This document shows, in pieces, positions 33,871-56,246 of a DNA stretch of 64,000 nucleotides (its first letter is position 1; the number at the start of each line of letters is the position of its first letter). The DNA comes from Sphagnum magellanicum (Eukaryota > Streptophyta > Sphagnopsida > Sphagnales > Sphagnaceae). The DNA is taken from assembly GCA_021904315.1 (NCBI GenBank), contig CM038913.1:4153958-4217957 (forward strand), read 5' to 3'. A program made the position numbers and the translations under genes. The notes under the pieces are model-generated. The model saw only the letters and a list, made by a program, of their open reading frames with translations. It made no database searches and had not been told where the DNA came from.

Positions 33871-34129
33871 CAGATAGAAAGGTGCAATGGTTTCATGTCA
33901 AATTACCTACAGATAGAAAATACTCTTCAAACTCTTTGCAACATTCCCAAGTGTTCCCTCTTGTGTTCCCAGGAGTTCTCTTCCTTTTAATGCCAGAGAG
34001 CGGGCCATTAATGGTGCATTCTGCCAGGTGCCCTGTCACTAACTGAAGTTTGAACCCCAGTGTAATGAGTTCACCCTCTGGGAAGTGCAGAGGCCCTGGG
34101 GCTGTGTTTTTTTTTGTAGGGATTATTTA

Positions 34130-34531
34130 ATGTAGTCTACATGGCGATCATGCATAGGAAGATGTTAAAATGGCAATCATCCTTAGGAAGATTTAGCCAA
34201 ATCTGGCTATAGACCAGATATGAAAGTACAAATTTTCCAATCAACCTTCTATATATTCATGCCCACACACTGAAAACATATTATATATACCTCTATACCA
34301 GTGTATTTTTTGTTTTTTTTCAATTTTGTGATTTGTAACATTTTTCAATTTTTTTCCATTTTTTGAGCATTCTTTTGTCGAATTAATTTACACTATTAAA
34401 ACGAATTTTCCTAATTTTTCAATTTGCTTTGTAGCCACAGTGCGAAAATTCACCAAGAAAAATCACTTCTCTGTACAGAATTTCTTTTGTTTTTCCACTC
34501 TGGATTTATTTGCTATGACCCTCCAAGTAAC
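34130..34531. other. Intergenic DNA with a partial dispersed repeat
   Basis: The stretch 34130-34230 (AGGAAGATTTAGCCAAATCTGGCTA) is a partial inverted unit of the repeat amplified at 2272-3450. The remainder is AT-rich with no gene. Confidence 0.5.
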
Positions 34532-35934
34532 TTTTTCTTCTCTCCCCAGGCTGCTCCAATCATAGCCACTGGCCAGGGCGAACCAGCACCTACACTGCTA
34601 CACTCACCTTCTTGAGTGAGGCCTCTAAGAGGCTATCTATGTCCTGGGAAAGCTTAAATTTGGATTCAGAGACCCTGATTTTGTGTGAGGGCGCTACATG
34701 CATCTATAATGTTTTGAAGCTGGCCCCAAAAAATTTGGGATTTTTACCATGGTTCTAGTGTAGGCCAGGTTCACCCGGCCAAGGCAAATTGACCCCCACA
34801 TCAGGATCATGGTAAAAACCCGAAAGCCCGTTTAAATGGTCTCATTACGCCCCAAAAATTGTAGATTTTGGACTTAGGGACCCTGATTTAGCTGGTTTGC
34901 CCAAGGCCCAATTAGTCATGCATTGCCTGCAACATGAGCTCTGGCAGAGCTCTTCAATAAGGCACTCACTGGGTGAAATCAACAAACAGGAAACGTGTGG
35001 GTCAATATTTTTTGGGTCAGTTTTGAGATGTAGACCAAGTGACTATCATCCATAGGAAGATTTAGACAGATTTGGCTATGAGCTAAATATGGAATTAGAA
35101 AAAAAAATTAACATCTATTTTTTGGCTACCTACTTCAACCATATATGGAAATCTGAAAAAAATTCTTGAAATTTGGTTGAATTTTGGCTATTGAGAATCT
35201 CAAAAAGCATTTGATTTTACCACTTTTAAATTTATTACTTAGCTTTTTGGTAAAAGAAAGGTGAGTGTGGATGTGAACAAAAGTCATGATGAAGCTACTG
35301 GGGGAGGCCAGAGGGAAAAAAGCAAAGCGTGTTTGACGAGTCTCTCAAGGTGACATTGCATATTCTACCCTCAATTACGAGTAGAAAATAGACATGTGTT
35401 CAAGAAATAAAGTAATGAATTGTTCAGTGGCCACGAAATCGGTAAAGCGCGCATGCTACAGTCACGGCAAAACCCTTCTAGAAGATTCTGGGGGAGGAGA
35501 AAATGAAGAAGAAAAAACATCCGTGAGAAAAGTGAAGAGTGTGAGAATTCCAGGGAGATCGTGAGGAGGAGGGGTTGGTGTTTTTTGGGGAGAAGTAATG
35601 GAAAGATCAGCTTGCTGGAATATATGTGATGTTAGGGACACCCATCATACCGTGTGTATGCTATTGGGATGGCAAAGGATTTGTAGCAGGTTTTATGAGA
35701 GCAAAAGGTCAAGAGAAAATATTTATGAGAGCAGTGAGCAAAAGGAATTTCAATAGTGGGAAATATGGAACTAGCTCTTCAGAGGGACTAGCTCTCTCCC
35801 TTTTTTTGGGTTCCTGTGGGCTGTGTGTCTTTTGGCCTTTCTTTGGCCTTCCCTTTTTGTCTCCTCTGTGATGGTCCGAATCATCGATATTTTATTGAAT
35901 TTTTGTCTCCCGTAAATAAATTAAAAAATATGAA

Positions 35935-36136
35935 AAATTCATATGGCCTCAAGGGAAAAGGAGTTGATCTTTCACAAGGGCCACTGAAAAGAAAGAGAGA
36001 TGTTGTGCAAATCCATGTTGTGATTGAGACACCTATGGTCCCTGCTGAAAATGCTCCTTCAAGCTCTGGATGCCACAGCAATGTGGTGCTTCTTTTTAAT
36101 TTTATGATGAGCTTTCTTTGCACAGTTTTTTCTTGA
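35935..36136 (+). pseudogene. Small membrane-anchor ORF, left copy
   Basis: Reads MKNSYGLKGKGVDLSQGP, a basic stretch, VPAENAPSSSG and then a hydrophobic segment (NVVLLFNFMMSFLCTVFS) before a stop. The right-arm copy continues past this point, so the stop shortens the ORF here. It lies upstream of the hydrolase exons in both arms and could be the first exon of the resistance gene or a separate short gene. No known domain. Confidence 0.35.
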
Positions 36137-36169
36137 GCTTTCACAAGTTACATGTTGAAGCTTGATTTT

Positions 36170-36350
36170 TTTTTTTTTTTTTTTTTCTTTTGTTTGGGTG
36201 TTGACAATTCTCCTTGACCCTTACAACCATAATATCTTATTGTCCTCACAAAGCATCAGGACAAGGAGGTCTAGTTCAGATTCGAACTCCCAACCAGCAG
36301 CTTTGCAACCATACCCTTTAACCACTAGGGTAGCTGAATGTCCCCAATCA
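36170..36350 (-). mobile_element. tRNA-derived SINE-like element, left-arm copy
   Basis: On the minus strand a box A-like TACCCTAGTGGTTAAAGG is followed about 30 bases on by a box B-like GGGAGTTCGAATCTGA. The order and spacing are those of a tRNA-type RNA polymerase III promoter. The unit ends near a T-rich tract next to TTTGTTTGGGTGTTGACAAT. A diverged copy occupies the mirror position in the right arm, so the insertion predates the inverted duplication or was copied with it. Confidence 0.6.
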
Positions 36351-37096
36351 TTTATAAGCTTCCTTGTCATACATTTCACTTTGCCTACTTTCCAGTTTGG
36401 TTGTTTAAATAAAACAATATGAAATGATGTTAAAACAATAAGAAACAGATTCATCATTGTAGCCTCTTACATTAGGCCAGTGATTCACTTGTTATAACAA
36501 GTAGAATTTGTGAAAGGGAAATTTGTGAATTGACATTGACTAAGAATATATTGGACTTGGAAGGATTGGGAACTTTCATTATAGATTATGAGTTAAGTTC
36601 AATGTGTAGTCTTAATCCAACAACCGAAAGCAAATTATTAAAATGCTCTTGGACCTTCTTATTGGGTTTGTGTCCCAATTCCTTAGGAGTTGGAGACCTT
36701 AGTGGACCAAATGTTGGGGAAAATGTCATGAAATAAAAATGAACCAAACTAGATGGCTTAGTTGATCAACCCAAGCTCTCAAGAATCCAATTCTTAGCAA
36801 TAACCTTTATTGATTGGCATATGTTCCACCTACTATGTAACAATATTTACTTATTGAACTAGGAAACTTTGAGGTCTATCACACATGTGAATGATCTTCA
36901 TTTGTTAGTCATGCAAGATAGATTTGGTATTCTCCAATTCACCTATTATTCACATCTTGTTAATTGTTGATTTTATCTAACTACTATAATTTTTGTATAT
37001 TGTATTTCTTTAATTTAATGTATAGTCAAATCATTTTCAAGAAATGTTTGAGCAATTGTGTTCACTTTGTTTAATTTTCTTTGCAAAAATATCCAG

Positions 37097-40000
37097 TGCA
37101 TGATTTAAATCCCACTTGCAATTCCAAAGATCCGAACTTGACCATCATTTTTTTTCATGGGATTGCTTTTGGCACAAATGATGAATGGAAGGAAACATGG
37201 ACAACATGCCCCACCAAAAATAAAGAAAGTGCATATTTTGGCCAGAAAAATGGCTGCCTGAAAATTTGAAAAACAATGTTTGAATTTTGTCATTGTCTTA
37301 TGATTCTAACATTGTGACAAGTGTTCACAATGATGTGATTGAAATTGGCAAAAACCTCATTCAAAGTTTGGTTACAAATTCAAGGTGTGACAATCTCTTC
37401 TATTTGGGGACACATTAATTACTCCTCCTTGTGTACATTAAAGATAATTGCTTACATCCTTAGATTTTCTTAAATGTTTTGCATGAGTTAATTATTCATG
37501 TTTGTTATTATTATGACACACACCAACAAGTTTCAATTTATTTGAATTGTTAAATTCATGTAGGAGAACATAAAATGGGGCTTACATGCACATATTCTTG
37601 GTTGAGGATAATAGCAAAGCCTATGTTCATTATAAGTTCATGGTACAACTAGTTTGGTTTTGATAACAATTTTTAGTTTGAACTTTTTGAAGCTTTATCT
37701 TTGGTAATGCACTTGAATTTAATTAATTATATTAATACGTGTGTAGAGAGTTTGCATCCATTAGATTGCAAAAAAAATTCAAACCAAATGTGTGTGTGTG
37801 TGTCTATATATATATATATGGTATTTTCAAGGTAACACATAGAAGACGAGTTGTACATAAACACAAGAATGTAAACACTTGCATGTACTTGAAAATAATA
37901 ATTGTTTTACCAAAACATGGTTGTCACATTTTTTAGGTAGATTAATGGAGTCAATAAATGAAAAATGACAAATGATGAGCAAATCAATTATGAACTTATG
38001 GCTTAGGTCATGTGTCAATTGCCTATTGCCCCAAGTATAATAAGATAAATTGTATATGCTAATACAATGTTGATAATGGAATTTTGGTGCATTGTTGAAT
38101 ATTTTGTAGTTATCAATCCGTTTGGGATGGACTAGTGGCATTAATTGCTTATAGTTTTGGAGGTCTTGTACTCAAAAGTTTGATGGTTGAAGCTCACAAG
38201 TATGTACATCAAAGGCTAAAAAATGGTTTGGATGATAAAGTACACAAATGTTGTAAGACATTTTTGAACAATGCTAAAGGTGTAGTATTTTATGGTGTAC
38301 CACATGCTGGTGGTACCCAATATTTATCGAATTATTTTGCTTGGCAACATCAACAAATCAATACATTGAACAAGTATGCAACCCAATCTGGTTGTTAAAA
38401 AAAATTAGAATCTTTCAACTCAGAAATGGAGCACCTTTCAACGGATTTTTAAAATGCTACTCGTGAAGACCTCAACATTTATGCATTTGGTGAAGGATTA
38501 CCTCTCAATGAGAACTGGGTAAAAACATTATCCAACTAGGTTCATTAGTTGAACTTTTTTTGTATTGTCAAAACTTGTGCGGGTTATAATCAATACTTTT
38601 GAATATACTAATGTAATATGGGTCATGTGTGTTTTATGAACTTTGCTTCATAACTTACTATTGATGGAAATGAAATTTGATTAATTTCAAACATCATGAA
38701 ATAGGTTTTAAATTTTCCCTTCATCAAATCAATTCCATATAAATATTTGTAATGAAAATCATAACATCAAATTAAAACATGTAAGATTAATGAGATAAAA
38801 CCAATAACTTTTTTATGTATTTATTTAATTTGCTTACCAAAGGGTTGAATGAAATTACTTTTACACAAAATATTTCATTTTTATTCAAACATCAACAATT
38901 ACTAAATTATAATTTCCACCACCATTTGGAACTAAATTAGAGCATAAGTGAACAAACAAGTCAATGAGTTCCATTAACTTAATCATTTGCACATGTAGGG
39001 AATTTTAGTGCCATATGCCTCAGCTATTCAATTGTCAAACAACAACCATTACAAAATCGAGGATGCTAATCACTTGACAATTTGCAAGCCACCAAACAAA
39101 GATCATCCAAGCCATTCTTTATTGTTAAAATGTTTGAAAATATGTATGGAGGTAAAAACATCAAATCTAAATCTTTTGATTTCATATTTGTTCATGTAAT
39201 TTGATACACATTAGGTCATAGCACACTTGACATGTATTGCATATGCAATGTCATATATATTGGTTATCAAATAAAAAAGATAACATATAAGTGACTTATA
39301 TTTTGTGAATTTTGACAGAAAAATATATTGCTTCCTTCTTTGCCATGTCATGAAGTGGCATTGATTGACAAAGCAAAACACATAAACATCTTGTTACAAA
39401 AGGAATATATTTTTGGTTTGGTTGGAATGGGTGGGATTCGGAAAACCACTTTGAGAAAAAAATTCTATCATTTGTTCCACAACCAATATGACAAATCTAG
39501 TTTTTTGGAGGATGTGAAATCAAACAATATCAATGATGTCATAAAACAACTCATATATGATTTGGTGGTTGAAGCTCACAAACATTTAAATCAAAGGTCA
39601 AGAAATGATTTGGATGATGAAGTACACAAATGTTGTAACACATTTTTGAACAACGTTAAAGGTGTAATATTTTATGGTGTACCACATGATGGTGGTCCCC
39701 AAAATTCATCAAACTATTTCACTTGGCAACATCAACAAATCAACACATTGAGCAAGTATGCAACCCAATATGGTATTTTAAAAAATTTTAAATCTTTCAA
39801 CACACAAATGGAACACCTTTCAACGAATTTTTAAAATGTCATTCATGAAGACCTCAACATTTATGCATTTGGCGAAGGATTACCACTCGATGAGAATTGG
39901 GTGAGATTTTCATTTCACCACATTGAAAATTGTCCAACTAGGTTCATTAATTGAACAATTTTTGTATTGTCAAAACTTGTGTGGGATCATGTACTCAATG

Positions 40001-42105
40001 TTCCGAAATATATTAAGGTGGTGAATGGGTCATGTGTAATATGAACTTTGTTTCATGAATTACTATTGATGGAAGGGAAATTTGATTGATTTGAAACATC
40101 AGGAAATTGGTTTAAATTTTTCCTTTCATCAAATCAATTCCATATAAATATTTGTAATGAGAATCATAACGTCAAATTAAAACATGTAAGATAAATGAGA
40201 TTAAAAACCAATAACTTTGTGATGTATTTATTTAATTTGCTTACCAAAGGGTTGAATGAAATTATTTTTACACAAAATATTTCATTTTTATTCAAACATC
40301 AACAATTACTAAATTATAGTTTCCACCACCATTTGGAACTAAATTAGAGCATAAGTGAATAAACAAGTCAATGAGTTCCATTAACTTAATCAGTTGCACA
40401 TGTAGGGAATTTTAGTGCCATATGCCTCAGCTATTCAATTGTCAAACAACAACCATTACAAAATCGAGGATGCTAATCACTTGACAATTTGCAAGCCACC
40501 AAACAAAGATCATCCAAGCTATTCTTTATTGTTAAAATGTTTGAGAATATGTATGGAGGTAAAAAAATCAAATCTAAGTCTTTTGATTTCATATATGTTC
40601 ATGTAATTTGATACACATTAGGTCATAGCACTTTTGATGTGTATCGCATATGTAATGTCATATATATTAGTTACCAAATAAGAAAGATAACATATAAATG
40701 ACCTATATTTTGTGAATTTTGACAGAAAAATATATTGCTTCCTTCTTTGCCATGTCATGAAGTGGCGTTGATTGACAAAGCAAAAGACATAAACATCTTG
40801 TTACAAAAGGAATCTATTGTTGGTTTGGTCGGAATGGGTGGGATTGGGAAGACCACTTTGTGCAAAAAATTCTATCATTTGTTCCACAACCAATAAGACA
40901 AATCTAGTTTTTTGGAGGATATGAAATCAAAGGACGATATCAATGATGTCATAAAACAACTCCTACACAATTTGTGTGGCAAAAGGCTATGCAAGGATCA
41001 AAATGTGAATAAAAAAGACCTTGACCAAATTAGGCAATGTATGATATCGAAGAAAGTGTTGGTGGTGGTGGATGATGTTTATACTAAGGTGGAGGAACTT
41101 GCATCCTTGCAATTTCTCATTGACAAGGGTGCCAAGATTGCAACTTCTCAAAGCAGAGTACTTGTGAATTGTCGACATTGGCAAACTTTGAAATCTCATG
41201 TAAATGTGGATGGAAAAGTGGTCATGAAACCTTTGGAGGATAAACAAGCAAAGGAACTTTTTATGTTCCATGCATTCGATAATGCAAATCATGTTGCAAC
41301 AAAGGATTTCGAAAATATATGTATGAAACTTATAAAAGCTTGTGGGGGGCTCCCTTTAAGTCTTAAAGTATTGGGTTCTTTTTGTGCAATACTAAAAAAT
41401 TAGAAATGTTGGAAGGTGCATTGAACAAATTGAAAAGTGGGAAAAGTTTCACGGGGGGCAATGATAATGAAGTGTTTTGGAATAAATTGAAGATTTCTTA
41501 TGACCACTTGGATAACGACAATAAAAACATGGTTTTGGATATTGCTTGTTTTTTGGGTGGTTTGAAAATAAATACAATTTGTTGAATGTGGAGTGGAAAT
41601 TATTTATACCCAAATTTTGATTTGCAAAATTTACAAGATAGATCTTTGATACAATGGGTAGAAGGTGAAATCTTGTACATACATGAACAATTCGAGACAT
41701 GGGTCAAAATATTGCAATGGAATATCCACTTATGAATTGATTTATATGGAAATCAAATACATCAAATTTCTTTTTACAAAAGGATGAGGTTGTCACCATA
41801 TTATTTCAATCCTATAATTTTATTTTGATTTCTTATATATATTTTTAATGTCCAAAACCAAATGTTTTAATTTTTAATCTTGATTTTATGAATACATGTT
41901 TTTCTTGAAAAATTGGCATTAAGATGAAATTTTTTTAATATAAATAATCCTTTTGTTTTCATTTCATGTGATAGGTGTTGGAGAATTTAGAAGGCATCTC
42001 ATTGAAAAAATGTGTCAATTTGCCTACATTGTCCCAAATTGGCTCAAAAGGATTTCACAACCTTAGGTTGGTTGACCTAGCAGAAGTTTCACCAAGTATT
42101 GTGGA
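37097..42105 (+). pseudogene. Hydrolase-NBS resistance gene (HNL type), left copy, rearranged
   Basis: Exon equivalents of the right-arm gene can be followed but are broken. The first hydrolase exon (37097-37400) has its acceptor changed from CAG to CAA and a frameshift after NDEWKETWTT. The second (38112-38518) keeps the nucleophile elbow AYSFGGLV and VFYGVPHAGG but has stops. Next come a linker exon (38999-39151) and half an NBS exon (39320-39560) with an altered P-loop, GMGGIRKTT. At 39560 the NBS frame runs straight into a second hydrolase segment (VVEAHKHLNQRSRNDLDDEV). A second linker exon (40406-40558) and a fuller NBS exon follow (40727 onward): GMGGIGKTT, VLVVVDDV, CGGLPLSLKVLGS and LDIACF. 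Further damage is a TAA after LFHNQ and a frameshift at the T run 41379-41383. The copy ends at the start of the LRR exon and has no LRRs. Confidence 0.85.
38184..40730 (+). repeat. Tandem duplication of about 1.4 kb inside the left HNL copy
   Basis: Hydrolase exon 2, the following intron, the linker exon and the start of the NBS exon occur twice. GAATTTTAGTGCCATATGCC lies at 39000 and 40407, and GAAAAATATATTGCTTCC at 39319 and 40726, an offset of about 1407. The junction falls at about 39560, inside NBS coding sequence. The right arm has a single copy. Confidence 0.85.
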
Positions 42106-45100
42106 AGATTAATCATCGCTAGATCGATATGTCATCCCACATGAATTACATCCTATTTTTTTCTTTGTTGACTATATTTAACTCCAATGTAGCAAGGAAA
42201 AGGATGAAAGCGATAAGCATATCCACAAGCTTGCCTAAATCTTCTATGCAAGAGGAACTCATGACCAAAACAACTTCTAAAACCTATTTATCAAGAATTG
42301 TATGTTCTTCTTGGATCTCCAATAAAGAGGACCCAAGGTTTGATTTGAATGCTAAAATTTAAACAAGAAGTATGGAGGAGCAAGCTCTGAGTGTAGCTCT
42401 AGAAGCCCTAAGGAAAAGCCAGTGCACTGTAATTTTGGACTCAAAATCTAGGGAGGCCAAAACTAACCTTTTCTTCATAGTAGCTTTTCTCTCTCCTCTT
42501 TCTCTAAGAACTTCAAGGACTAAAGCACGAGGGGAGCTGTACATTTTTGTGGTTCATGAGATCGCTTCTACCTTTGGTGTCCCCTTCATTGGAAAGGTAT
42601 CCACTACCCAACCACAACTCTTCTTCTTTTATTTCCAGCAAATTCCCATCATTTCCACTTTCTAAACTTCTTGTAGAAATAGTTGGGAGCTTGGTTTCTA
42701 CCAGATTTTTTGGAATAATTCTCCAACTCAGGTTCTTGTAGCTTTGTTTGGCTTATCTAATGAGGAGTTGTTATGACAACATTGATATAGATTTGTACAC
42801 AACTTAAAGACATTTAGGTTTTGGCACTAAATGTGTTAAACTTAAAAATCTATAAACAAGTTTACAAAACACAAAACAATAATGCAAGATCAGTATCCAT
42901 CCATGATAACCTTAAACCCTAATCAATTGATCTTGTACTATGTCAATGCTTGAAAAAAACCCTAGTCAAACATTACTTTGAGGATTTTAATCATTGATTC
43001 CAACCAATTGTGGCAAACAAGGAAAAAAAGAACAAGTAATTGGAAGTTGGAAATTATGATCCCCTTGGGTAACATTAACTTAGTAAACAATATTTTTTAA
43101 AAAATTACACATATGTTCATGAAGCAAAATTATGGACATGCATTTCAACAAGTCAAAAGGTGTTATACTTTGACAAATATTAGGCATTATGAACTTAATG
43201 GAAAAGTATCTAATATTGCAACACATGGGAAAGGAGAAGAAGCAAATATGCCAACATTCATGCTCAATGGGATTTTTGTTTGATCACAAAAGCTTGAAAA
43301 CTGGTGTTCGTGATGTGGAAAGAAGTTTCACATGTCATTGGCTTGTAGAGCTTTGTCGAGAGGTTGTGAACCTCAAAAATGAAGTTGACAGAAAAGAAGA
43401 ACCCATGATGTTTGGTGAGGAGTTTCATACCCCAAGCCACATCTTTTTGTGCATTGAAAATGTGGGTGGTCTACAAGTGTAAAATGGACACGTTGAACTT
43501 TTGGTGGTTCTCACAAAATTGGCAGGTATTTTTCCTATTATAGTATGTCAACATCCTTTCGATAAAACCTTAAGCATTTCAAAGTTGTTAAGTTGGCATA
43601 TTCCCGTTTTTATAGTAATTAATTTGATCTAAATCATTTTGCTATATTTTTTATAAATTTTATTACTCTGTAAAACATTAAAATAATGTAAAATTATTTT
43701 TGTAATAATAAATATTCATTTTTAACAAAATATTATAGGTTCTGCATACAATAATTTACTATAGTTGAATTATTTAAATTAAAATAAATACATTTATTAT
43801 TCACATTATAATAAAATTACCATAAGGATTCTAATGTTAATTTAAATTATATGTTATTAATATTATTAGTAAGTGCAATTACACATTATATAATTTGTTA
43901 AATAATTTTTTAGCATTGTAAGAAAATAAATAAGTAGGGTGAATTTTTATGTTGGAAGAATATTTATTCATTATAATTAAGTAATTATAAATAATAGATA
44001 TATGAATTTTACAGTAATTATGATAATTACATTGATTACTCGAATTACATTATGATGAGTGTAAAAATATTAAATATGGATTTTAATTATAAATTTTATG
44101 TTCTAAATAATTTAATTATTTATAATTAATTTACTTACAATAATTTTACAATAATTATTGTACTTGTTTTTTCTACACCTATGGATGATTGATGTATTAC
44201 CACCTTTACATATACCTTAATATGAGGTTAATATACAATAATAGTTTTTTCAAACCATGCCTTATTAATCCACAAAAATAATACATATATATATACCATT
44301 ATGAATATGGAGTACATAATGTATACATAAGGCTTACTATACATCATTGTTAATTACCATAACATAAAATGCATGACTTACCCTATACAAAATTAGTAAC
44401 ACACATAACTTAATGTATAAATAAGTATTAGTTACCATTTTTTGGTCACTTTTGCAACTAATGGGCCATACAAAGGCATTCTAAGATGAAAATAATGTGA
44501 AAAGTCATTCCATTAGAAGAATGAAAACTTTATAAATAGTTGCGACATAGTCACAAAATTTGACCAAAAAATGTGTGATGTGATTTTCAGTCACAAATGT
44601 CACCAATGTTAGCATAAACAATAATTAATTGCATGTAATCACAAATAATTTGGTTACATTTTAGCCTTTTTCTACTAGTGACAATGCTTATATTAACGAA
44701 AAGGTCCTTCTTCTTTTTGAGCATCGAGCTATCCTTGTCCATTATAAAAATTTTACGCATTGAAGTAGAGAAAAAATTAGTTTTATTATTTTTTTTTCAA
44801 TGCCAAATTTCTTTTAATAGGGAGCTAGGTGAAAGGTCACATGGGACTTAAGATTTGAATGTTTTTGACAAATCATCAATTAAGTTGATAGTTTTCAAAG
44901 TCTACATGTTGGGGTTTTTCAAAGATAAATAACATAATTTCATCATTGTGGCTTTGTTAGCTTTGATAACTTCAATAAATATTTGTTTCTTAAAACGAGA
45001 ACCACGCATACCAATGTTTGTAGAACATGGCACAATGGTTGTTGTCATGTTTATTAAGTAGCACTTACAATTGAAGTGTTGACATAGTAAGCAAGAGTGC

Positions 45101-45589
45101 CCAACATTCGTTTTTTGCCTTTCAACTTGTAGTTGTAGTCAAGAGATAATCTCGCCATGCATTTACAACAAAGACATTAGTCCCAATCTCAATGTCATCC
45201 ATCCATGTGTGATCTATCATCCATCACTATGTTTTGTAATTGACAAAAGTAGTTGAACATGGGATTTTTTTAGTCAACACACCACCCTGGGAAGCTTGAC
45301 TATAGACTTTGTAATTTTCCAAGTCAACGTTTCAACTAGAATTCAATTGTAGACCATGTGGGTGCTAAAAATATTCCATGAATTCCGAAATAATTGGGAT
45401 TTGCTTTCATTTGTGCACCAAAATAATAGTTAGTTCAATTTAGTTGGTAATTGTCAATAATTTTCTTAAATATTCAAAAAATTACAATTGAAATTTAGTT
45501 GAAGATGACATCAAGTGGAAGGTGGGTTGGCTGAAAAAGAGGGGTTTTTAATTAGTGATTCAGTTGGCAATAGATAAAATTGATTTTCT
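42106..45589. other. Spacer between the inverted arms
   Basis: No recognisable gene. Two open frames, 42372-42665 and 43189-43482, have no known domain and I cannot support them as genes. From about 43600 to 44450 the DNA is extremely AT-rich (many ATAATTATAAT-type phrases), like a decayed repeat or matrix-attachment-like region. The last part leads into degenerate LRR units. Confidence 0.45.
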
Positions 45590-48010
45590 CAACTTGAAAC
45601 ACCTTAACAAATTAAGTTCCTTGAATGCATTAGATTGGCCAATAAACGTAAGTAATTTTTGCAAATTCTTCCATTCTCACAATTAAAACTTTTGGAGTGC
45701 ATTTAATTGGTCAATGTACATGTAAGTAATTCCTGCAAGTTGTAGCATTCACACAAATCAAGATTTTCAAGTGCACTTAATGACCAATAGATGAAAGTAT
45801 TTTTTTCAAGTTGGAACACCTTGACAAATGAAGCTTTTGGAATGTGTTCAATTGGCCAATAGATGAAAGTAGCTATTTCAAGTTGGAACACCTTGACAAA
45901 TGAAGCTTTTGGAATGTATTGAATTGGCCAATAGATGAAAATAGTTATTTCAAGTTGGAACACCTTGACAAATGAAGCTTTTGGAATGTGTTCAATTGGC
46001 CAATAGATGAAAGTAGTTATTTCAAGTTGGATTGCCTTGACAAATGAAGCTTTTGGAATGTACTCAATTGGCTAGTAAATGAAAGTAGTTATTTCAAGTT
46101 GGAATGCTTTGACAAATGAAGCTTTTGGAATGTACTCAATTCGCCAATTGCTGAAGGTAGTTCTTCCAAATTGGAACACCCTCTCAAACTAAGCCATTGG
46201 AGTGCATTCAACTGGCCAATAGATGAAGGTAGTTATTTCAAGTTTGAACACCCATATAAATTGAGATGTTGGAGTGCATTCAATTGGCCAATAGATGAAG
46301 GTAGTTCTTTCCAGTTAGAATATGCACTAAAACCAAGCTTTTGGAGTGCATTCAATTGGCCAATAGATGAAAATAGTTCTTTCAAGTTGGAACACTCACT
46401 CAAACTAAGCTCTTGGAGTGCATTCAATTGGCCAATAGATGAAGGTAGTTCTTTCAAGTTGGAACACTCGTATAAATCAAGCTCTTGGATTGCATTCAAT
46501 TGGCCAATAGATGAAGGTAGTTCTTTCAAATTGGAACACCCTTTCAAACAAAACCATTCGAGTGCATTCAATTGGCCAATAGATGAAGGTAGTTCCTTCA
46601 AATTCGAACACTATGATAAATCAAGCCTTTGAAGTGCATTCAATTGGCCAATAGATGAAGGTAGTTCTTTCAAATTGGAACACCCTTTCAAACAAAACCA
46701 TTGGAATGCATTCAATTGGCCAATAGATGAAGGTAGTTCCTTCAAATTCGAACACTATGATAAATCAAACCTTTGAATTGCATTCAATTAGACAATAGAT
46801 GAAGGTAGTTCTTTCAAATTCGAACATTGTGATAAATCAAGCTTTTGGAGTGCATTCAATTGGCCAATAGATGAAGGTAATTCTTTCAAGTTGGTACATT
46901 TGCCTAAAAAAAACTTTTGGAGTGCATTCAATTGGCCTGTAGATGAAGGTAGTTTTTTCAAGTTGGAACGCCCATATAAATTGAGCTGTTGGAGTGCATT
47001 CAATTGGCCAATAGATGAAGGTAGTTCTTTCAAGTTCAAACACCATAATAAATCAAGCTCTTGGAGTGCATTCAATTGGCCAATAGATGAAGGTAGTTCT
47101 TTCAACTTGGAACACCCTGATAAATCAAACTCTTGGAGTGCATTCAATTGGCCAATAGATGAAGGTAGTTCTTTCAAATTCGAACACTGTGATAAATCAA
47201 GCTTTTCGAGTGCATTCAATTAGCCAATAAATGAAGGTAGTTCTTTCAAGTTGGAACACTTGTATAAATCAAGCTTTTGGAGTGCATTCAATTGCCCAAT
47301 AGATGAAGGTAGTTCTTTCAAGTTCAAACACCATAATAAATCAAGCTCTTGGAGTGCATTCCATTGGCCAATAAATGAAGGTAGTTCTTTCAAGTTGGAA
47401 CACTCGGATAAATCAAGCTCTTGGAGTGCATTCAATTGGCCAATAGATGAAGGTAGTTCTTTCAAGTTGGAACACTCGGATAAATCAAGCTCTTGGAGTG
47501 CATTCAATTGGCCAATAGATGAAGGTAGTTATTTCAAATTCGAACACTGTGATAAATCAAGCCTTTGAAGTGCATTCAATTGGCCAATAGATGAAGGTAG
47601 TTCTTTCAAATTCGAACACTGTGATAAATCAAGCTTTTGGAGTGCATTCAATTGGCCAATAGATGAAGGTAGTTCTTTCAAGTTTGAACACATGTCTAAA
47701 TAAAGCTTTTGGAGTGCATCCAATTGGCCAATAGATGAAGGTAGTTCTTTCAATTTGGAACACCCAGTCAAATCAAGATCTTGGAGTGCATTCAATTGGC
47801 TAATGGATGAAGGTAGTTCTTTCAAGTTGGAACACCCATGCAAATTAAGCTCTTGGAGTGCACTCAATTCACCAATAGATTTAGATAATTTTTTCAAGTT
47901 GGAACACCCATTCAAATTAAGCTCTTGGAGTGCATTCAATTGGCTAATAGATGAAGGTATTTTTTCCAAATTTAGGCATTGTGTCAAATCAAGTACTTTT
48001 AATTGGAAAT
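45590..48010 (-). repeat. 72-bp tandem array encoding leucine-rich repeats
   Basis: About 33 units of 72 bases on the minus strand, each encoding a 24-residue LRR of the type SNLKELPSSIGQLNALQ.LDLSQC. The units keep one reading frame over most of the array. Point stops interrupt it, for example at 47529-47531 (GAA to TAA) and near 47220. The distal units at about 45776-46150 form a separate, nearly identical subfamily (GAAGCTTTTGGAATGT with CACCTTGACAAAT on the plus strand), which suggests recent local homogenisation. The plus strand of the array also reads open for long stretches; this is a side effect of the 72-base period. Confidence 0.9.
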
Positions 48011-51000
48011 AATAAAACAAATTACTCGGCAACGTTTGAATCATGCATTTTTTGAAACACAACCACTTAACATTATTCAAAGTTTGCCCTTGGATGAAAA
48101 AATTCACAATAATTGGTGAGGCTTCTGTTAGGTCAACCAACCTAAGGTTGTGAAATCCCTTTGAGCCAATTTGGGACAATGTAGGCAAATTGTCACATTT
48201 TTTCAAGCAAATGCTTCCTAGATTTTCCACCACCTATCACATGAAATGAAAACAAATGGATTATCAATATAAAAAAACATTTCATCCTAATGCCAATGTG
48301 TTTTTACAAAAAACATGTATTCATAAAATCAAGATTGAAAGGTAAAACATTTGATTTTGGACATTAAAAATATTCATAGGAAATCAAAATAAAATTATAG
48401 GATTGAAATAGTACGGTGACAACCTCATCCTTTTGTAAAAAGAAATTTGGCTTATTTGATTTCCATATAAAATGATTCATAATTGGAAGTTCCATTGCAA
48501 TATTTTGACCCATGTCTTGTAACTGTTCATGTATGTACAAGATTCCACCTTCTGCCCATCGGATTAACGATCTATGTTGTAAATTTTGTAATTCAAATTT
48601 TGGATGTAAATAATCTCCACTCCACGCTCGACAAATTGTATTTATTTTCAAACCACGAAAAAAACAAGCAATATCCAAAAACATGTTTTGATGTTGCTTA
48701 TCCAAGTAGTCATAAGAAATTTTCAATTTACTCCAAAGTTCTTCATTATCATTGCCCCCAGTGAAACTTTGCCCGCTTTTCAATTTGCTCAATGCACTTT
48801 CCCAGATTTTTCTAATTCTTTAATATTACACAAAAAAGAACCCAATACTTCAAAACTTAAAGGGAGCCCCCCACAAGCTTTTATAATCTTCGTACATATA
48901 TCTTTGAAATCCTTTGTTGGAACATGATTTGCATTACCGAATGCATGGAACATAAATAGTTCCCTTGCTTGCTTTTTCGTTAAAGATTTCATGACCACTT
49001 TTCCATCTTCATTTACATGAGATTTCAGATTTTGCCAATTTTGACAATTCACAAGTACTTTGCTTTTAGAAGTTGTATTCTTGGCACACTTATAAATGAC
49101 AAGTAGTAAGGATGTAAGGTTCTTCGCGTTACCAACATCATCCACCACCACTAACACTTTCTTCGATATCATACATTGCCTAATTTGGTCAAGGTCTTTT
49201 TTATTCACATTTTGATCCTTGCATAGCCTTTTGCCACACAAATCGTGTAGGAGTTGTTTTATGACATCATTGATATCGTCCTTTGATTTCACATCCTCCA
49301 AAAAATTAGATTTGTCATATTGGTTGTGGAACAAATGATAGAATTTTTTGCACAAAGTGGTCTTCCCAATCCCACCCATTCCGACCAAACCAACAATAGA
49401 TTCCTTTTGTAACAAGATGTTTATGTCTTTTGCTTTGTCAATCAACGCCACTTCATGACATGGCAAAGGTGGAAGCAATATATTTTTCTGTCAAAATTCA
49501 CAAAATACAGGTCATTTATATGTTATCTTTCTTATTTTGTAACTAATATATATGACATTACATATGCGATACACATCAAGAGTGCTATGACCTAATGTGT
49601 ATCAAATTACATGAACATATATGAAATCAAAAGACTTAGATTTGATGTTTTTACCTCCATACATATTCTCAAACATTTTAACAATAAAGAATAACTTGGA
49701 TGATCTTTGTTTGGTGGCTTGCAAATTGTCAAGTGATTAGCATCCTCGATTTTGTAATGGTTGTTGTTTGACAATTGAATAACTGAAGCATATGGCACTA
49801 AAATTCCCTGCATGTGCAAATGATTAAGTTAATGGAATTCATTGACTTGTTTATTCACTTATGCTCTAATTTAGTTCCGAATGGTGGTGGAAACTATAAT
49901 TTAATAATTGCTGATATTTGAATAAAAATGAAATATTTTGTGTAAAACTAATTTCATTCAACCCTTTGGTAAGCAAATTGAATAAATACATCACAAAGTT
50001 ATTGGTTTTTAATCTCATTTATCTTACATGTTTTAATGATGTTATGATTTTCCTCACAAATATTTTATATGGAATTGATTTGATGAAAGGAAAATTTTAA
50101 ACCGATTTCCTGATGTTTCAAATCAATCAAATTTCCCTTCCATCAATAGTAATTCATGAAACAAAGTTCATAAAACACATGACCCATTCACCACCTTAAT
50201 ATATTTAGGAACATTGAATACATGATCCCACACAAGTTTTGACAATACAAAAAAAGTTCAATTAATGAACCTAGTTGGACAATTTTCAATGTGGTGAAAT
50301 GAAAATCTCACCCAATTCTCATCGAGTGGTAATCCTTCGCCAAATGCATAAATGTTGAGGTCTTCATGAAGGACATTTTTAAAATCCGTTGAAAGGTGTT
50401 CCATTTGTGTGTTGAAAGATTCTAAATTTTTTAAAATACCAGATTGGGTTGCATACTTGTTCAATGTGTTGATTTGTTGATGTTGCCAAGTGAAATAATT
50501 TGATAAATTTTGGGGACCACCAGCATGTGGTACACCATAAAATACTACACCTTTAACGTTGTTCAAAAATGTGTTACAACATTTGTGTACTTCATCATCC
50601 AAATCATTTCTTGACCTTTGGTTTAAATGTTTATGAGCTTCAACCACCAAGCTTTTGAGCACAAGACCTCTAAAATTGTAAGCAACTAATGCCACCGGTC
50701 CATCCCAAAGGGATTGATAACTACAAAATATTCGACAATGCACCAAAATTCCATTATTAACATTGTATTAGCATGTACAAATTTATCCTATTATACTTGG
50801 GGCAATTTTCCAATTCACACATGACTTAAGCCACAAGTTCATAATCGATTTGCTTGTCATTTATCATTTATTATTTATTGACTCCATCAATCTACTTAAA
50901 AAATGTGACAACCATGTTTTGGTAAAACAATTATTATGTACAAGTATGCAGGTGTTTACATTCTTTTGTTAATGTACAATTCATCTTTTATGTGTTACCT

Positions 51001-51743
51001 TGGAAATACATTTTTAAAAAATATTAAATTAAAAAAAAGATATGCCCTTTTTTGAAAAAAAATTTTGCAATGAAATGAATGCAAATTTTTTACACATGTA
51101 TTAATTTAATTTAATTTAATTCAATTACATTACCAAATATAAAGCTTCAAAAAGCGCGAATTAAAAATTGCCATAAAAACCAAACTAGTTGTACCATGAA
51201 CTTATAATATGAACATAGACTTCGTTATTATGCTCAAACAAGAACATTTGCATTGAAGACCCATTTTATGTCTTTATACATGAATCGAACAATTCAAATC
51301 AATGGAAATTTCTTGGTGTGTATCACAATATTAACAATTAATTTGTGCAAAACATTTGAAAAATTCTAAACATGTAAACAATTATCTTTAATGTACACAT
51401 GGAGAAATAATTAATGTGTCCATAAATAGAGGAGAGATTCACACCTTGAATTTGTAACCAAACTTTGAATGAGGTTTTTGCCTATTTTAGTCACATCATT
51501 GTGAACACTTGCCACAATGTTAGAATCATAGGACAATGATAAAATTCGAACATTGGTGTTGAAGTCTTCGGGTAGCCACTTTTCTGGCCAACATATGCAC
51601 TGTTCTCTATTGTTGGTGCCACCTGTTGTCCATGTTTCCTTCCATTCATCATTTGTGCCAAAAGCAATCCCATGGAAAAAAACGACGGTCAAGTTTGGAT
51701 TATTGGAATTGCAAATGGGATTTAAATCATGCACTAGATATTT
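47529..51743 (-). CDS. Alpha/beta-hydrolase-NBS-LRR resistance protein (HNL type), right copy
   Basis: Intracellular immune receptor of the plant NLR superfamily with a SERAC1/lipase-like alpha/beta-hydrolase domain in the N-terminal position. Exons, 5' to 3' on the minus strand: 51743-51445, 50720-50312, 49807-49655, 49487-48424 and 48233-47529. All have GT-AG borders and compatible phase. Hydrolase: VVFFHGIAFG, CWPEKWLPEDF, RILSLSYDSN, ALVAYNFRGLVLKSL, VVFYGVPHAGG. NBS: GMGGIGKTTLCKKFYHLF, VLVVVDDV, CGGLPLSFEVLGSFLC, FLDIACFFRG, then IHEQLQDMG in place of MHDLIQDMG. The LRRs follow. One frameshift at the A run 48807-48811 interrupts the NBS exon, and TAA at 47529 cuts the LRR array after about ten units. 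It may be recently inactivated, or the indel may be an assembly error. The catalytic serine of the hydrolase is replaced by Asn. The start codon is unresolved; it may lie in the membrane ORF upstream. Confidence 0.8.
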
Positions 51744-52494
51744 CTGCAAAGAAAATGAAAAAGAATCAACACAATTTTTCAAACATCTCTTGAAAATCAT
51801 TTGACTATACATTAAATTAAAAAAATGCAATATACAAATTATATTAGTTAGATAAAGGCCATAAGTAATTGAAAAGATGAAGTTTAACAAAAATACAATA
51901 ATAGATGAATTGCAGAATACGAAATCTATCTTGCATGACTAATAAATGAAGATCATTCACATGTGTCATAGACCTCAAAGTTTCAAAACATAGTTCAATG
52001 AGTAAATATTGTTACATTGTAGGTGGAACGTATGCTAATCAATAAAGGTTAATGCTAAGAATTGGATTCTTTCAAGTTTGGGTTAATTGATTCAACCATC
52101 TAGTTTGGTTCATTTGTATTTCATGCCATTTTCCCCAACATTTGGGCCACTAAGGCTTCCAACTCTTAAAGAATTGGGACACAAACCTAATAAAAATGTC
52201 CAAGAGCATTTTAATAATTTGCTTTAGGTTGTTGGATTAAGACTACACATTGAACTTAACTCATAATCTATAATGAAAACTCCAGTCCTTACAAGTTCAA
52301 TATATTCTTAGATAATGCCAATTGACAAATTTCCCTTTCACCAATTCTACTTGTTATATAACAACTGAGTCGCGAGCCTAATGTAAGAGGCTACAGTGAT
52401 GACTCCATTTCCTATTGTTTTTGTTTAATCAAACAAATTGGAAAGTAGGCAAAGTGAAAATGTACAACAAGGAAGCTTGTAAATGATTGAGGAC

Positions 52495-52670
52495 ATTCAG
52501 GTACATTCAAGTACCCTAGTGAGTAAAGGGTATGGTTGTGAAGCCGCTGGTTGGGAGTTCAAATCTAAAATAGACCTCCTTCTCTTGATGCTTTGTGAGG
52601 AGAACAAGCTGTCATGGTTATAAGTGTCTAAGAAAATTGTCAACACCCAAACAAAATTAAAAAAGTAAAG
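52495..52670 (+). mobile_element. tRNA-derived SINE-like element, right-arm copy
   Basis: The plus strand has TACCCTAGTGAGTAAAGGG (box A-like) and GGGAGTTCAAATCTAAA (box B-like, one key base changed), then AATTGTCAACACCCAAACAA. It mirrors 36170-36350. Confidence 0.55.
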
Positions 52671-53064
52671 AAAAATCAAACTTCAACATGTAACTTGGGA
52701 AAGCCCAAGAAAAAACTGTGCAAAGAAAGCTCATCATAAGGTCAAGAAGAAGCACCACATTGTTGTGCCATCCAGAGCTTGAAGGAGCATTTTCAGCAGG
52801 GACCAAAGGTTTCTCCTTCGTAGCAGGTATCTGCACAACATCTTTACATGGGAAAGCCCAAGAAAAAATAGTGCAAATAAAGCTCATGATAAGATCAAGA
52901 AGAAGCACCACATTGCTGTGCCATCCAGAGCTTGAAGGAGCATTTTCAGCGGGCACCAAAGGTGTCTCACTGACAGCAGAGATCGGCACAACATCTCTCT
53001 TTGTTTTTGGTGGCCCTTGTGAAAGATCAACTCCTTTTCGCTTGAGGCCATATGAATTTCCCAT
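52657..53064 (-). CDS. Small membrane-anchor ORF with a duplicated module, right copy
   Basis: Starts MGNSYGLKRKGVDLSQGPPK at an ATG at 53064-53062. It then carries two tandem copies of a module of about 50 residues: VPAENAPSSSGWH followed by a hydrophobic segment (NVVLLLDLIMSFICTIFSW, then NNVVLLLDLMMSFLCTVFSW). Each hydrophobic segment is long enough to span a membrane. Gly-2 and the basic cluster could suggest lipid anchoring, but the left copy has Lys at position 2. It lies 0.9 kb upstream of the first hydrolase exon, so it may be the N-terminus of the HNL protein; I found no donor in the required phase. No family recognised. Confidence 0.4.
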   Translation of the reverse strand: MGNSYGLKRKGVDLSQGPPKTKRDVVPISAVSETPLVPAENAPSSSGWHSNVVLLLDLIMSFICTIFSWAFPCKDVVQIPATKEKPLVPAENAPSSSGWHNNVVLLLDLMMSFLCTVFSWAFPSYMLKFDFSLLF

Positions 53065-54249
53065 ATTTCGCACGACTGAAATTCCTATTGCTCCCTTCTC
53101 TCATAAATATTTTTCTCTTGACCTTTTGGTCTCATAAAACCTGCTACAAATCCTTTGCCATCCCAACAGCATACACAGGGTAAGATGGGCGTCCCTCACA
53201 TCACAGATTCCCGCGAGCTAAGCTGATATTTCCACTAGATCGTCCCAAATAACATCAACCCCTTTCCTCTTCACGATCTCCCTGGAATTCCCACTCTTCT
53301 CTTACTCCTTTTTCGACTTTCCTCACAGATGTTTCTTCTTCTTCATTTTCTCCTCCCCCCACAAACTTCTAGAAGGGTTTTGCCGTCACTGTTCAGACTG
53401 TAGCATACGCGCTTTACCGATTTCTTGGCCACTGAACAATTCATTACTTTCTTTTCTAGAACGCATGTCTCTATTTTCTACTCATAATTGAGGATGGAAT
53501 ATGCAATGTCACCTTGAGACTTGTCGAACACGCTTTAATTTTCCCTCTGGCCTCCTCCATTATTATCATCATGACTTTTGTTCACATCCACACACCGACC
53601 TCTCTTTTACCAAAAAACTATAGCAAAAAAGAACTAAGTCATAAATTTAAAAAGTGCTAAAATCAAATGCTTTTTGAGATTCTCGATAGCCAAAATTCAA
53701 CCAAATTCAAAGAAAAATCGTCAGATTTCCATACTTGGTTTTCAAGTAGGTAGCCAAAAATAAGAGAAAGAGGTTTAAAATTTTCTAATGCCATATTTAG
53801 CTTCTAGCCAAATCTTACTAAATCTTCTTACCGATGATAGCCACTTGGGCTATATCTCAAAACTGACCCAAAAAATATTGATCCACACGTTTCCTGCTGT
53901 TTGCTGATTTCAACCAGTGCATTATTGAAAGCGTTCTGCCAGAACTCATGTTGCAGGCAATGCATGATTAATTGGGCCTTGGGCGAACCGGCCAGGGTGA
54001 AGTGACCCCCACATTGGGATCACCGTAAAAGCCCCCAAGACCCATTCAAATGGCCATATTAGGCCCCAAAAATTATAGATTTGGACTTTGGGACCCCGAT
54101 TTTGTTTAAGGGAATGATATTCATAAATATTTAGAATATTTATGAGCAATTTAAATGGGCTTTCCCGGGTCAATTTGCCTTGGTCAGGTGAACCTGGCCT
54201 ATATTAGAACCACGGTGAAAATCCCAAAGTTTTTGGGGGCAGCTTCAAG

Positions 54250-54910
54250 ATATTATAGATACATGTAGCGTCCTTAGAGAAAATCAGGGTCTCTGAATCT
54301 ACAACCCTAAACCCTAAACCCAAGAGGCTTCACTTATGAAGGTGAGTGTACCAGTGCAGGTGCTGGTTCACCCTGGCCAGTGGCTATGATTGGAGGAGCC
54401 TGGGGGGAGAAGGAAATTGAGAAGCCTGATTTGGAGAACCAAGAATCAGGCTAGGGACCCAGGTACACTCCAACTCAAGGATTCAATTTGCTTCACATGA
54501 GTCCAAATTGGTTCCTAGGAAATTGGACCATGGACCCTCGTCTAAAGTGGGCCTAATGGTGTTTTACTGCAAGGCCCTTTTGACTCATTATGTGGAGAAC
54601 CACAATCAGCACGATTGACATCTAGTGCAAAGTGCACACATGTTGGATCCCAGATCTGAGGCATTAGCCTAGTGAAAGCCAGTAAGTTTTTGCTCATTTT
54701 TGGTTTTCTGACTTGCTTTGTGTTATGGTGCCCACAACCAAGTCTGTTGTTTGTGAAGGAATTGGGGAAACCTGTAATTAATGGCCAGGCCGAACCTACA
54801 CCTACATTAATACACTCACCTTCTTGAATGAGGCCTTTCTCTGATAATAGCTCCAAGACGCCTCAAAGAAATGTTAAATTTGAACTCAGAGACCCTGACT
54901 TAGTCTAAGG
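54250..54910. repeat. Arm-end dispersed repeat, with an extra copy outside the arm
   Basis: The end of the right arm (54250-54412, minus orientation) and 54775-54905 (plus orientation) both match 34570-34690 at the left arm end: GGCCAGG.CGAACC, ACACTCACCTTCTTGA, TGAGGCCT and CAGAGACCCTGA. The same family therefore occurs three times, once at each arm end and once just beyond the right arm. A telomere-like CCCTAAACCCTAAA lies at about 54305-54318. Confidence 0.7.
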
Positions 54911-55250
54911 CTTGCTTTATACTCCAAGTCAGGGCTGAAAAAACTTGGGGCCAAGTTTGAGCATTTTGGAGTTTTTGTCTGGCCCCAAGTTACTAATAAA
55001 TGCTACAACATTGGCCACAAGGGTTGGAAATTGGCTTCCCAAGTTTGATGTTATCCTTTTCTTCAGCCTTGGGCCCAATACCATAAAGTTCAGCATTAAT
55101 TAGTAACTTGGGGCAGATTGAAAAGATTTTTTCTATTTCAGCCTTGACTCCTAGTGTAATTTAGCCCTTGGGGCTGATTTCAACTTTAGCACCAATAGAG
55201 TGCGTGATTTGAGTTGAACATCGGCCTCCACTCCTGGTATAAAGTGGGCG
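54911..55250. other. Intergenic DNA, no gene seen
   Basis: The phrases CTTGGGGCCAAGTTTGA, GGCCCCAAGTTACTAATAA, TTAGTAACTTGGGGC and CCCTTGGGGCTGA recur in both orientations between 54936 and 55170. They form weak inverted repeats, probably a degraded element. Confidence 0.4.
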
Positions 55251-55253
55251 TAA

Positions 55254-55570
55254 GAGCAGCTCCACAGGTGCTGGGTATGTGGCCCTGGAGAGTAAATTTT
55301 GGCTCAGCACAATGGCTTTGGCCTCGACATTTTCCTTGATAATACCAAGGCAGGCAAAAGGCTCAGCAAAGGACAATACCTGCTGTTGATTGTTGGATAG
55401 ACTCTAAGACTGGTTGGTCCAAGTGGGTTGCTAATAGCTATTATTGGTTTTCAATCGTTGCAGTGTCAGTTTTAGTGTGGGTTGGGGGAAAAAAAAAAAA
55501 AAAACTAATCCTGGTTTTGGGAAATATTGTGTTTTATTGCCATATACTCAGAGCACCTGTGGAACTGCTC
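55254..55570. mobile_element. Tourist-like (PIF/Harbinger type) MITE with perfect TAA duplication
   Basis: Termini GAGCAGCTCCACAGGTGCT and AGCACCTGTGGAACTGCTC are inverted repeats with one mismatch. TAA flanks the element at 55251-55253 and 55571-55573. The interior shares ACCTGCTGTTGATTG and GGTGGGTTGCTA-like phrases with the copy at 14218-14558. It is 317 bp and non-coding. Confidence 0.9.
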
Positions 55571-56246
55571 TAAAAGATGATTTTAGCTCCAACAAAAGGT
55601 GTTTTTGAATGTCAAGTGATTTCACTAGAATTTCAACGAATTCACTAGTTTAACTAAATGGAGACTAATTGAAAAATAATTAATTCATTAATCTAACGAA
55701 TGGGAAGTAATGAACTGCACCCACATTTTGTAATAATAAAAAACAAACACAAAGTGTTTTTGTAACTTAGTGCCAATATAGATGCTGGTTTGGCCAAGGT
55801 ATACCTATACCAGGTACAAATACTATGCTTGGTCTCATGGTCGTGCGATGAGTGATCACAGCATGGGAGGGTGTGCCCTGTGAATAGTGAAACAGGGGGT
55901 GTTCCAGTACCGTCTCTTCCTGACTTTACGAATAACTCTAATATCACAATTTTAGAGTGGGGTAATGCCATCCAAGTGAGGCATCTTCCCTGAAATAGGC
56001 CTGCCCTGGCTTTCGCCGGCCGGAGTGGCCCAGCCCCCATGACTCCACCAGTTCCATTTGGGATGAACTCAAGTTCATCCCAATTATTGGATCTACTACA
56101 GGCATTGAGGTTGGGTCAATTCTTTTTTTTTTCCCCTTCCTTACTTCAAGGCTACCCATAAAAAAATCTATTATACTACCCAAGCATTTCAAACCCCAAC
56201 TACCTACCTCCGCCCCATTAAAAATCTTAAACCTCGTCGTCACTTG
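55571..56246. other. Intergenic DNA, no gene seen
   Basis: Short open frames on the minus strand (for example 55693-56040) show no domain and no codon pattern that I would trust. Confidence 0.45.

Follow-up and report, generated by a model that had tools for sequence, protein, structure and literature searches.

A tail-to-tail pair of HNL-like NLR pseudogenes in Sphagnum magellanicum, probably of different ancestry, with a putative repair tract in one of them

Ectopic gene conversion, or templated insertion at DNA breaks, is a general mechanism and is one of the described systems that come closest to the locus presented here; another is the inverted-duplication origin of MIRNA and siRNA loci, reportedly set out by Allen et al. 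in 2004. As for gene content, the closest class is that of the alpha/beta-hydrolase-NBS-LRR genes (HNL or Hyd-NLR), which excerpts of two papers describe in bryophytes, with one intron in the hydrolase region and one between the hydrolase and the NBS, both of phase 0, and one after the NBS (PMC3352924, PMC11218826); hydrolase-NLRs are reported in Sphagnum in the excerpt of the second, whose authors also assayed liverwort domains for cell death in Nicotiana benthamiana (PMC11218826).

The window, that is, the whole stretch of 64,000 nucleotides analysed here, holds an inverted repeat which a sequence-only reading had described and whose sizes and coordinates stand after self-BLAST of the window: arm 1 spans 34533-42103 on the plus strand (7,571 bp), arm 2 spans 54416-48105 on the minus strand (6,312 bp), and a spacer of 6,001 bp separates them. 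The minus-strand self-matches linking the arms (weakest E 5e-68) form inverted blocks pairing 34533-34795 with 54416-54167 (81%), 34891-35768 with 53992-53061 (83%), 35926-36157 with 53068-52836 (87%), 35998-39568 with 52843-49234 (86%), and 39562-42103 with 50650-48105 (93%), so that the arms differ by 7-19% depending on the block. Arm 1 is the longer of the two owing to a tandem duplication formed by 38179-39568 and 39561-40979. The same reading had given the pair of NLR copies a single LRR array, and the array is indeed in arm 2 only; its proposal that the match ends at the first LRR codons was close, the inner end at 48105 lying about 100 bp short of the array of 72-bp LRR units (45554-48013).

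The outer end (34533/54416) is no clean duplication border, as other family copies match arm 1 out to 34283. The arm ends there because of a deletion of about 490-500 bp at 54417..54424, where arm 2 and D, its tandem near-twin 37 kb to the right, are without sequence that other family members have (54416/54425). D itself lies beyond the end of the window, at about 82679-91369 when the numbering is continued. A segment of about 115 bp (34775..34889) is inverted in one arm relative to the other, with a plus-strand match to 53988-54102; it is flipped also relative to the copy at 8.25 Mb on C8, and K8a, another copy on C8, matches arm 1 unbroken from 34844. Judged by eye, a tRNA-like SINE is plausible at about 36215-36345 in arm 1, with a counterpart in arm 2 and with motifs resembling the A-box and the B-box; neither Rfam at gathering scores nor a tRNA scan gave a match.

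By their predicted exons, both arms are hydrolase-NB-ARC-LRR (HNL-like) genes, from a family with 68 members listed at ≥80% in the genome. Pfam recognises the NB-ARC domain in each (E 2.5e-27 in arm 2, 3.4e-17 in arm 1), and the C-terminal LRRs, seen both as Pfam LRR families and as the 72-bp array, belong to arm 2 only, the match in arm 1 stopping before the array. The joined hydrolase exons of D match DUF676, a putative serine esterase, at E 0.0019, which is below the Pfam curated cut-off; three of four copies match, arm 2 itself gives no match at E 0.1, and the hydrolase exons have no match in the PDB at E 1 and one chance-level match only (E 2.8) in a profile search. Introns placed by splice motifs agree in position with the HNL class, the second one (before the NBS) being of phase 0 and the first one (within the hydrolase region) looking like phase 2. 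As far as the excerpts describe the class, our copies share with it the hydrolase-like exons, the NB-ARC, the LRRs and three predicted introns, one in the hydrolase region, one of phase 0 ahead of the NBS and one following it; they depart from it in that both are pseudogenes, in that the Pfam hydrolase match is below cut-off, and in that the hydrolase-region intron is read as phase 2, where phase 0 is reported.

Both arms are interrupted as genes. Arm 2 (48105..54416, minus strand), with its hydrolase exons, NB-ARC exon, WHD and LRR exon start, has a 2-bp frameshift near 48820, and its hydrolase motif reads AYNFRG, the counterpart in D, K2 and K8b being AYSFGG; its LRR array (45554..48013, minus strand; 31.6 copies by TRF over 45689-47966) contains in-frame stops, the first at 47531-47529. 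D has an open NB-ARC frame (374 aa) and long LRR frames, its LRR exon reaching a first stop only after 858 aa, compared with 234 in arm 2. The 5' part of arm 1 (A, 34283..39568, plus strand), made of the promoter region, the hydrolase exons and the NB-ARC exon start of an HNL-like pseudogene, has a stop after ...YATQSGC, and its P-loop reads GMGGIRKTT; the 3' part (41071..42103, plus strand) holds the remaining NB-ARC region and the LRR exon start. Between the arms, 43608..45554 (minus strand) flanks the arm 2 gene on its 3' side, and the tandem duplication from which D arose likewise has its left border at 43608. A block of about 1.5 kb (42103..43611, plus strand) contains a DHBP-synthase-like exon (42363-42665); the block is present at other places in the genome too and, as judged by eye, often lies close to HNL loci.

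The sequence-only reading took the repeat for a palindrome-like duplication of one gene. Indeed, a single gene duplicated inversely, from arm 2 to arm 1, and diverging thereafter would account for the long colinear match of the arms and for one tract that is about 95-98% identical from arm to arm. The ancestry of arm 1 speaks against it. Each regional tree took in arm 1, arm 2 (called C in the comparisons), D and only three or four further copies, from the 68 listed at ≥80%. K8a is the nearest among the sampled copies to the 5' part of arm 1, up to its own limit at 38140: over 36000-38130, arm 1 is 93.0% identical to K8a and 87.1% to arm 2, and the tree places arm 1 and K8a together (FastTree local support 1.000). 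Over 41040-42090, arm 1 is 88.2% identical to arm 2, at most one point away from K5, K8b and K2, and groups with K2 (0.998). The best genome matches of the 3' part, among the 40 of 181 candidates that were scored, are copies on C2, C5, C17 and C12 at 89%, arm 2 reaching 87% and ranking 24th, and D 29th, by score among the 39 other copies. In every 250-bp window of arm 1 outside 39562-41070 and 38783-39032, arm 2 is equalled or surpassed by one or more copies from other chromosomes. The trees, the genome rankings and the sharp jump in divergence near 41,075 described below led us to reject one inverted duplication as the source of the arms, an origin that we consider improbable; a longer stretch may instead have been duplicated inversely and then overwritten from other copies. 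The two outer parts of arm 1 probably belong to one original gene, since K2-side groupings of arm 1 recur (0.829 in 36000-38130 and 0.906 in 38180-38780, besides the one at the 3' end) and C2 copies stand high in both searches.

Between these two parts lies the tract of arm 2/D lineage (39562..41070, plus strand). Since it duplicates part of arm 1's own gene, we take it for a templated insertion, copied from the arm 2 lineage when a break was repaired. Its left join shares the motif TTG, and its right border falls between 41061 and 41083. Searched against the genome (40 of 187 candidates scored), it is 97% identical to arm 2 and 96% to D, followed by a full-length copy at 91% and one partial match at 92%; in the tree of 39620-41030, arm 1, arm 2 and D stand apart from K5, K8b and K2 (local support 1.000). 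Within the tandem pair, A (here 38179-39568) and B (39561-40979) are 90.8% identical, A and C 90.9%, and B and C 96.6%. A change-point test on 484 variable sites places a switch of ancestry near 41,075, a result reached by none of 5,000 shuffles: in 40780-41075, 32 of the 37 variable sites in arm 1 agree with arm 2, against 25 of 75 in 41076-41400, where 20 sites agree with K2 and not with arm 2 and 28 are found in arm 1 alone. Constraint on exons does not account for this, as the three 250-bp windows that lie wholly or largely within the tract's intron are 94.8-97.6% identical to arm 2, against 83.7-95.6% to K5, K8b and K2; the window 40033-40282 (94.8% to arm 2, 92.4% to D) is below the rest of the tract. 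A second patch at 38783-39282 is arm 2/D-like (94.2-95.0%) and B-like (95.8%), which implies more than one exchange.

The most convincing explanation, which we hold with high confidence on the strength of these comparisons, would thus be a tail-to-tail pair of HNL-class NLR pseudogenes with different ancestry, arm 1 carrying a tract of arm 2 lineage: in the sampled trees, the outer parts of arm 1 fall with dispersed copies from other chromosomes, and the partner of arm 2 is D. A break in the NB-ARC exon of arm 1 would have been repaired with about 1.5 kb taken from the arm 2 lineage, the donor being either arm 2 itself or the ancestor of arm 2 and D; copying would have begun at the 3-bp match (TTG) and rejoined by true homology. 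Because the tract begins about 1.4 kb upstream of the position to which it is homologous, arm 1 contains an internal tandem duplication. As in templated insertion or ectopic gene conversion, one finds a sharp-bordered tract whose donor lineage is identified genome-wide, microhomology on one side, homology on the other, and a duplication of local sequence; unlike the general mechanism, this is one historical event read from sequence, with an insertion of about 1.5 kb.

The sequence-only reading also proposed that the pair could give long double-stranded RNA and so act through small RNAs. One has to ask whether it could be a functional hairpin or convergent-transcript locus giving siRNAs against HNL genes such as D, which appears distinctly improbable. 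Like inverted-duplication MIRNA and siRNA loci, it has inverted arms that belong to a gene family, relatives that are intact elsewhere could be targets, and the complementarity is long and near-perfect: perfect runs of ≥21 common to both arms cover 3,102 of the 7,821 bases of arm 1 (longest run 151), and 981 of the 1,185 21-mers shared by the arms are also in D. An excerpt of a review adds that NLR-targeting miRNAs probably first arose as inverted repeats of NLR parts (PMC10575705). Unlike such loci, the arms here are two paralogues and not one duplicated segment, as the trees, change point and genome rankings indicate, and the spacer is 6 kb; for a hairpin, a transcript through about 20 kb would be needed. 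Moreover, D shares as many perfect 21-mers with arm 1 as arm 2 does (1,185 each), and unlinked paralogues share 718-830 (K8b 830, K5 823, K2 756, K8a 718), the arm-to-arm count being only 1.4-1.7 times as high. All six listed NB-ARC pairs less than 10 kb apart include a broken or partial copy, which suggests decay. That the broken pair would be a maintained hairpin RNA source restraining D and other HNL genes, with arm-to-arm copying renewing its complementarity, seems to us very doubtful; if true, it would make this a moss locus whose hairpin silences NLRs. Among the titles and abstract openings listed in literature searches, we found no hairpin or siRNA locus derived from NLR inverted repeats in moss, and we do not claim its absence from print.

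HNL genes may also be cargo of a mobile element, a candidate reading suggested by inverted flanking blocks of about 500 bp at one C8 locus, but the deletion in arm 2 and D accounts for at least one of the sharp borders that are shared (54425). Finally, an assembly artefact (fold-back read or misjoin) is extremely improbable even at so repetitive an NLR locus, since arms at 81-93% identity by block make a simple fold-back, which would be near 100%, unlikely, and the contigs are from PacBio with an N50 of 17.5 Mb according to an excerpt of the Sphagnum genome paper (PMC9946827).

With the pair of HNL-class pseudogenes of different ancestry as the preferred reading, the pair presumably does nothing as protein and any RNA role would be incidental; we regard the locus as an NLR cluster rearranged in an ordinary way, in which the scar of repair is unusually clear. 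The small-RNA question is now testable because the arms carry diagnostic sites. A visible NLR inverted repeat is not necessarily an inverted duplication. In one locus, with both partners decayed beside a near-twin whose NB-ARC and LRR frames are open, rearrangement of a moss NLR family is on display: mixing of dispersed lineages, tandem duplication, and copying from an inverted neighbour.

Self-comparison of the window reproduces the inverted repeat that the sequence-only reading had taken for a 20-kb palindrome-like duplication of one resistance gene. Arm 1 (34533-42103, plus strand, 7,571 bp) and arm 2 (54416-48105, minus strand, 6,312 bp) lie 6,001 bp apart with their genes in tail-to-tail orientation. 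The two genes have a single LRR array between them, made of 72-bp units, which belongs to arm 2 (45554-48013). The symmetry is thus real, yet identity by window, trees and genome rankings all indicate arms of differing ancestry, so that the palindrome reading cannot be kept. A Pfam scan of ten pieces (the arm 1 counterpart of the winged-helix piece not among them) identified NB-ARC in each arm and, in arm 2, LRRs and a ROQ1-like winged helix; the hydrolase exons resemble DUF676 (putative serine esterase), with a match in three of the four copies scanned and a score below the cut-off in D, a near-twin of arm 2 located 37 kb to its right, beyond the window end. The layout is similar to that of the bryophyte hydrolase-NBS-LRR (HNL) class (PMC3352924): the positions of the three conserved introns agree, and the intron before the NBS appears from its splice motifs to be in phase 0, as in that class, whereas the hydrolase-region intron, given there as phase 0, looks like phase 2 here.

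Both arms are decayed. Arm 1 carries an internal tandem duplication, whose left unit A (38179-39568) and right unit B (39561-40979) both contain stops, and the P-loop in A is altered (GMGGIRKTT). Arm 2 has two additional A's near 48820 that are missing from D and from three family copies on other chromosomes, K5, K8b and K2; it reads AYNFRG, as against AYSFGG in D, K2 and K8b, a position we take to be the hydrolase nucleophile, and its LRR stops begin at 47531.

In order to trace the ancestry of the arms, they were compared with the genome (438,994,042 bases in 31 contigs, the window being C7:4153958-4217957) and with four fetched copies: K8a (C8:19.930-19.948 Mb), K5 (C5:8.195-8.206 Mb), K8b (C8:24.657-24.669 Mb) and K2 (C2:8.089-8.096 Mb). 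Identity by window and trees split arm 1 in three. For 34533-37400, the top other copy is at C8:19.94 Mb (92%), most remaining long matches reach 84-91%, and arm 2 is absent from the listed places (best 40 of 2,724 candidates scored); over 36000-38130, arm 1 is 93.0% identical to K8a versus 87.1% to arm 2, the K8a match ending at 38140. Within this first part, a patch at 38783-39282 is arm 2/D-like (94.2-95.0%) and most similar to the B copy (95.8%). The middle tract (39620-41030) has an identity of 96.8% with arm 2 and 96.5% with D, versus 90.5-92.3% with K5, K8b and K2, while 41040-42090 stands at 87.4-88.6% to all five. Copies on C2, C5, C17 and C12 (89%) come first for the last part; in this ranking of 39 other copies, arm 2 (87%) takes place 24 and D place 29 (best 40 of 181 candidates scored). 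We therefore rejected a single duplication as the origin of the arms, arm 1 outside the middle tract and the patch being nearer to, or as near to, at least one of the sampled copies from other chromosomes. Since C2 copies rank high for the first part too (best 40 of 2,724 candidates), the first and last parts are compatible with one original gene.

The middle tract finds its top genomic matches in arm 2 (97%) and D (96%), the next full-length copy standing at 91% and a single partial match, over 551-1481 of 1,481, at 92% (best 40 of 187 candidates scored). Pairwise identity is 90.8% for A-B, 90.9% for A and C, the corresponding piece of arm 2, and 96.6% for B-C. The right border is sharp: the two arms agree at 32 of 37 variable sites in 40780-41075 and at 25 of 75 in 41076-41400, where 28 sites are private to arm 1 and another 20 follow K2 but differ from arm 2, and a change-point at 41,075 (484 variable sites) was not equalled in strength in any of 5,000 shuffles. 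At the left join, GATTTG is followed by GTGGTTG, TTG being common to both sources. Unit A runs up to arm 2 position 49234, and the gene is picked up again by the third part just some 80-100 bp beyond that point, so that arm 1 minus the tract reads as a nearly continuous gene. A break in arm 1 was probably repaired with about 1.5 kb of sequence copied from the lineage of arm 2, the donor presumably being arm 2 itself or the ancestor of arm 2 and D.

D itself results from the tandem duplication of 43608-79318 (35.7 kb) at 80676-116882, outside the window, in long blocks 91.6-97.0% identical; within it, 54248-56500 is 100% identical to its own tandem copy. D is 98% identical to arm 2 across 48105-50800 and has an NB-ARC frame of 374 aa; its LRR exon runs 858 aa to the first stop versus 234 aa in arm 2, and the translated stretch, which extends past the LRR array, has 16 stops in all, including those after the first. 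By motif count, LRR-like units number 33 in arm 2 (45554-48013) versus 42 in D (82679-85673, outside the window).

Matching of arm 1 to other copies continues out to 34283; arm 2 and D both miss 485-506 bp at 54416/54425, judging from the distance between the two pieces of the match in four copies, one on each of C5, C8, C9 and C17; and the match of the arm 2 3' flank begins at 43608-43610 in four other places, D included (among the best 40 of 156 candidates). The arms therefore have separate breakpoints at their inner as well as at their outer ends. The 1.5-kb block 42103-43611, which contains a 3,4-dihydroxy-2-butanone 4-phosphate synthase-like exon, is repeated in the genome (best 40 of 156 candidates scored), its copies often lying close to HNL loci (coordinates judged by eye). 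A dispersed short repeat of about 180 bp (~34104-34288, more than 30 listed places) lies at the left border of arm 1, and a tandem array of ~171-bp units (2604-3443) has short matches to the arms at 35022-35213 and 53664-53749. At one C8 locus (2183-2794 of fetched stretch L034, and L035, C8:8.2708-8.2724 Mb), an HNL gene has on either side an inverted block of ~500 bp with similarity to window 54425-55640, an arrangement that might point to a mobile or foldback unit. Other window ORFs resemble, by eye, a U-box/ARM-repeat protein (6632-9311), an Sm-like protein (16803-17189) and a WD40 katanin p80-like protein (24462-30538).

A protein search with the arm 2 NB-ARC gave 152 matches, 150 of them listed (150 of 329 candidates scored). 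Not counting four partial matches further down, 68 of the listed rows show at least 80% identity, both arms included, and 57 of these have an open frame of at least 360 aa. The listed matches form 37 neighbouring pairs less than 60 kb apart, nine in opposite orientation; in one of the 37, separated by 257 bp, the two members are pieces of the same split gene. A further six are closer than 10 kb, four of them inverted and only that of the window tail to tail, and all six include at least one member with stops, a shifted frame or partial sequence.

As for the hairpin RNA that the sequence-only reading had proposed, the arms share 1,185 perfect 21-mers. Perfect shared runs cover 3,102 bases of arm 1, 1,219 of which fall in 39569-41030 (1,462 bases); the other four parts (1,073-2,181 bases each) contribute 313, 539, 668 and 363. 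For the control copies, the numbers shared with arm 1 are 1,185 (D), 830 (K8b), 823 (K5), 756 (K2) and 718 (K8a), so that most of the pairing capacity of the arms would be expected of any two members of the family. In a transcript running across the whole pair, 981 of the 1,185 shared 21-mers would match D exactly; a hairpin role is thus conceivable but unlikely. On the whole, the pair is an ordinary outcome of rearrangement within an NLR family, in which one probable copying event is well resolved.
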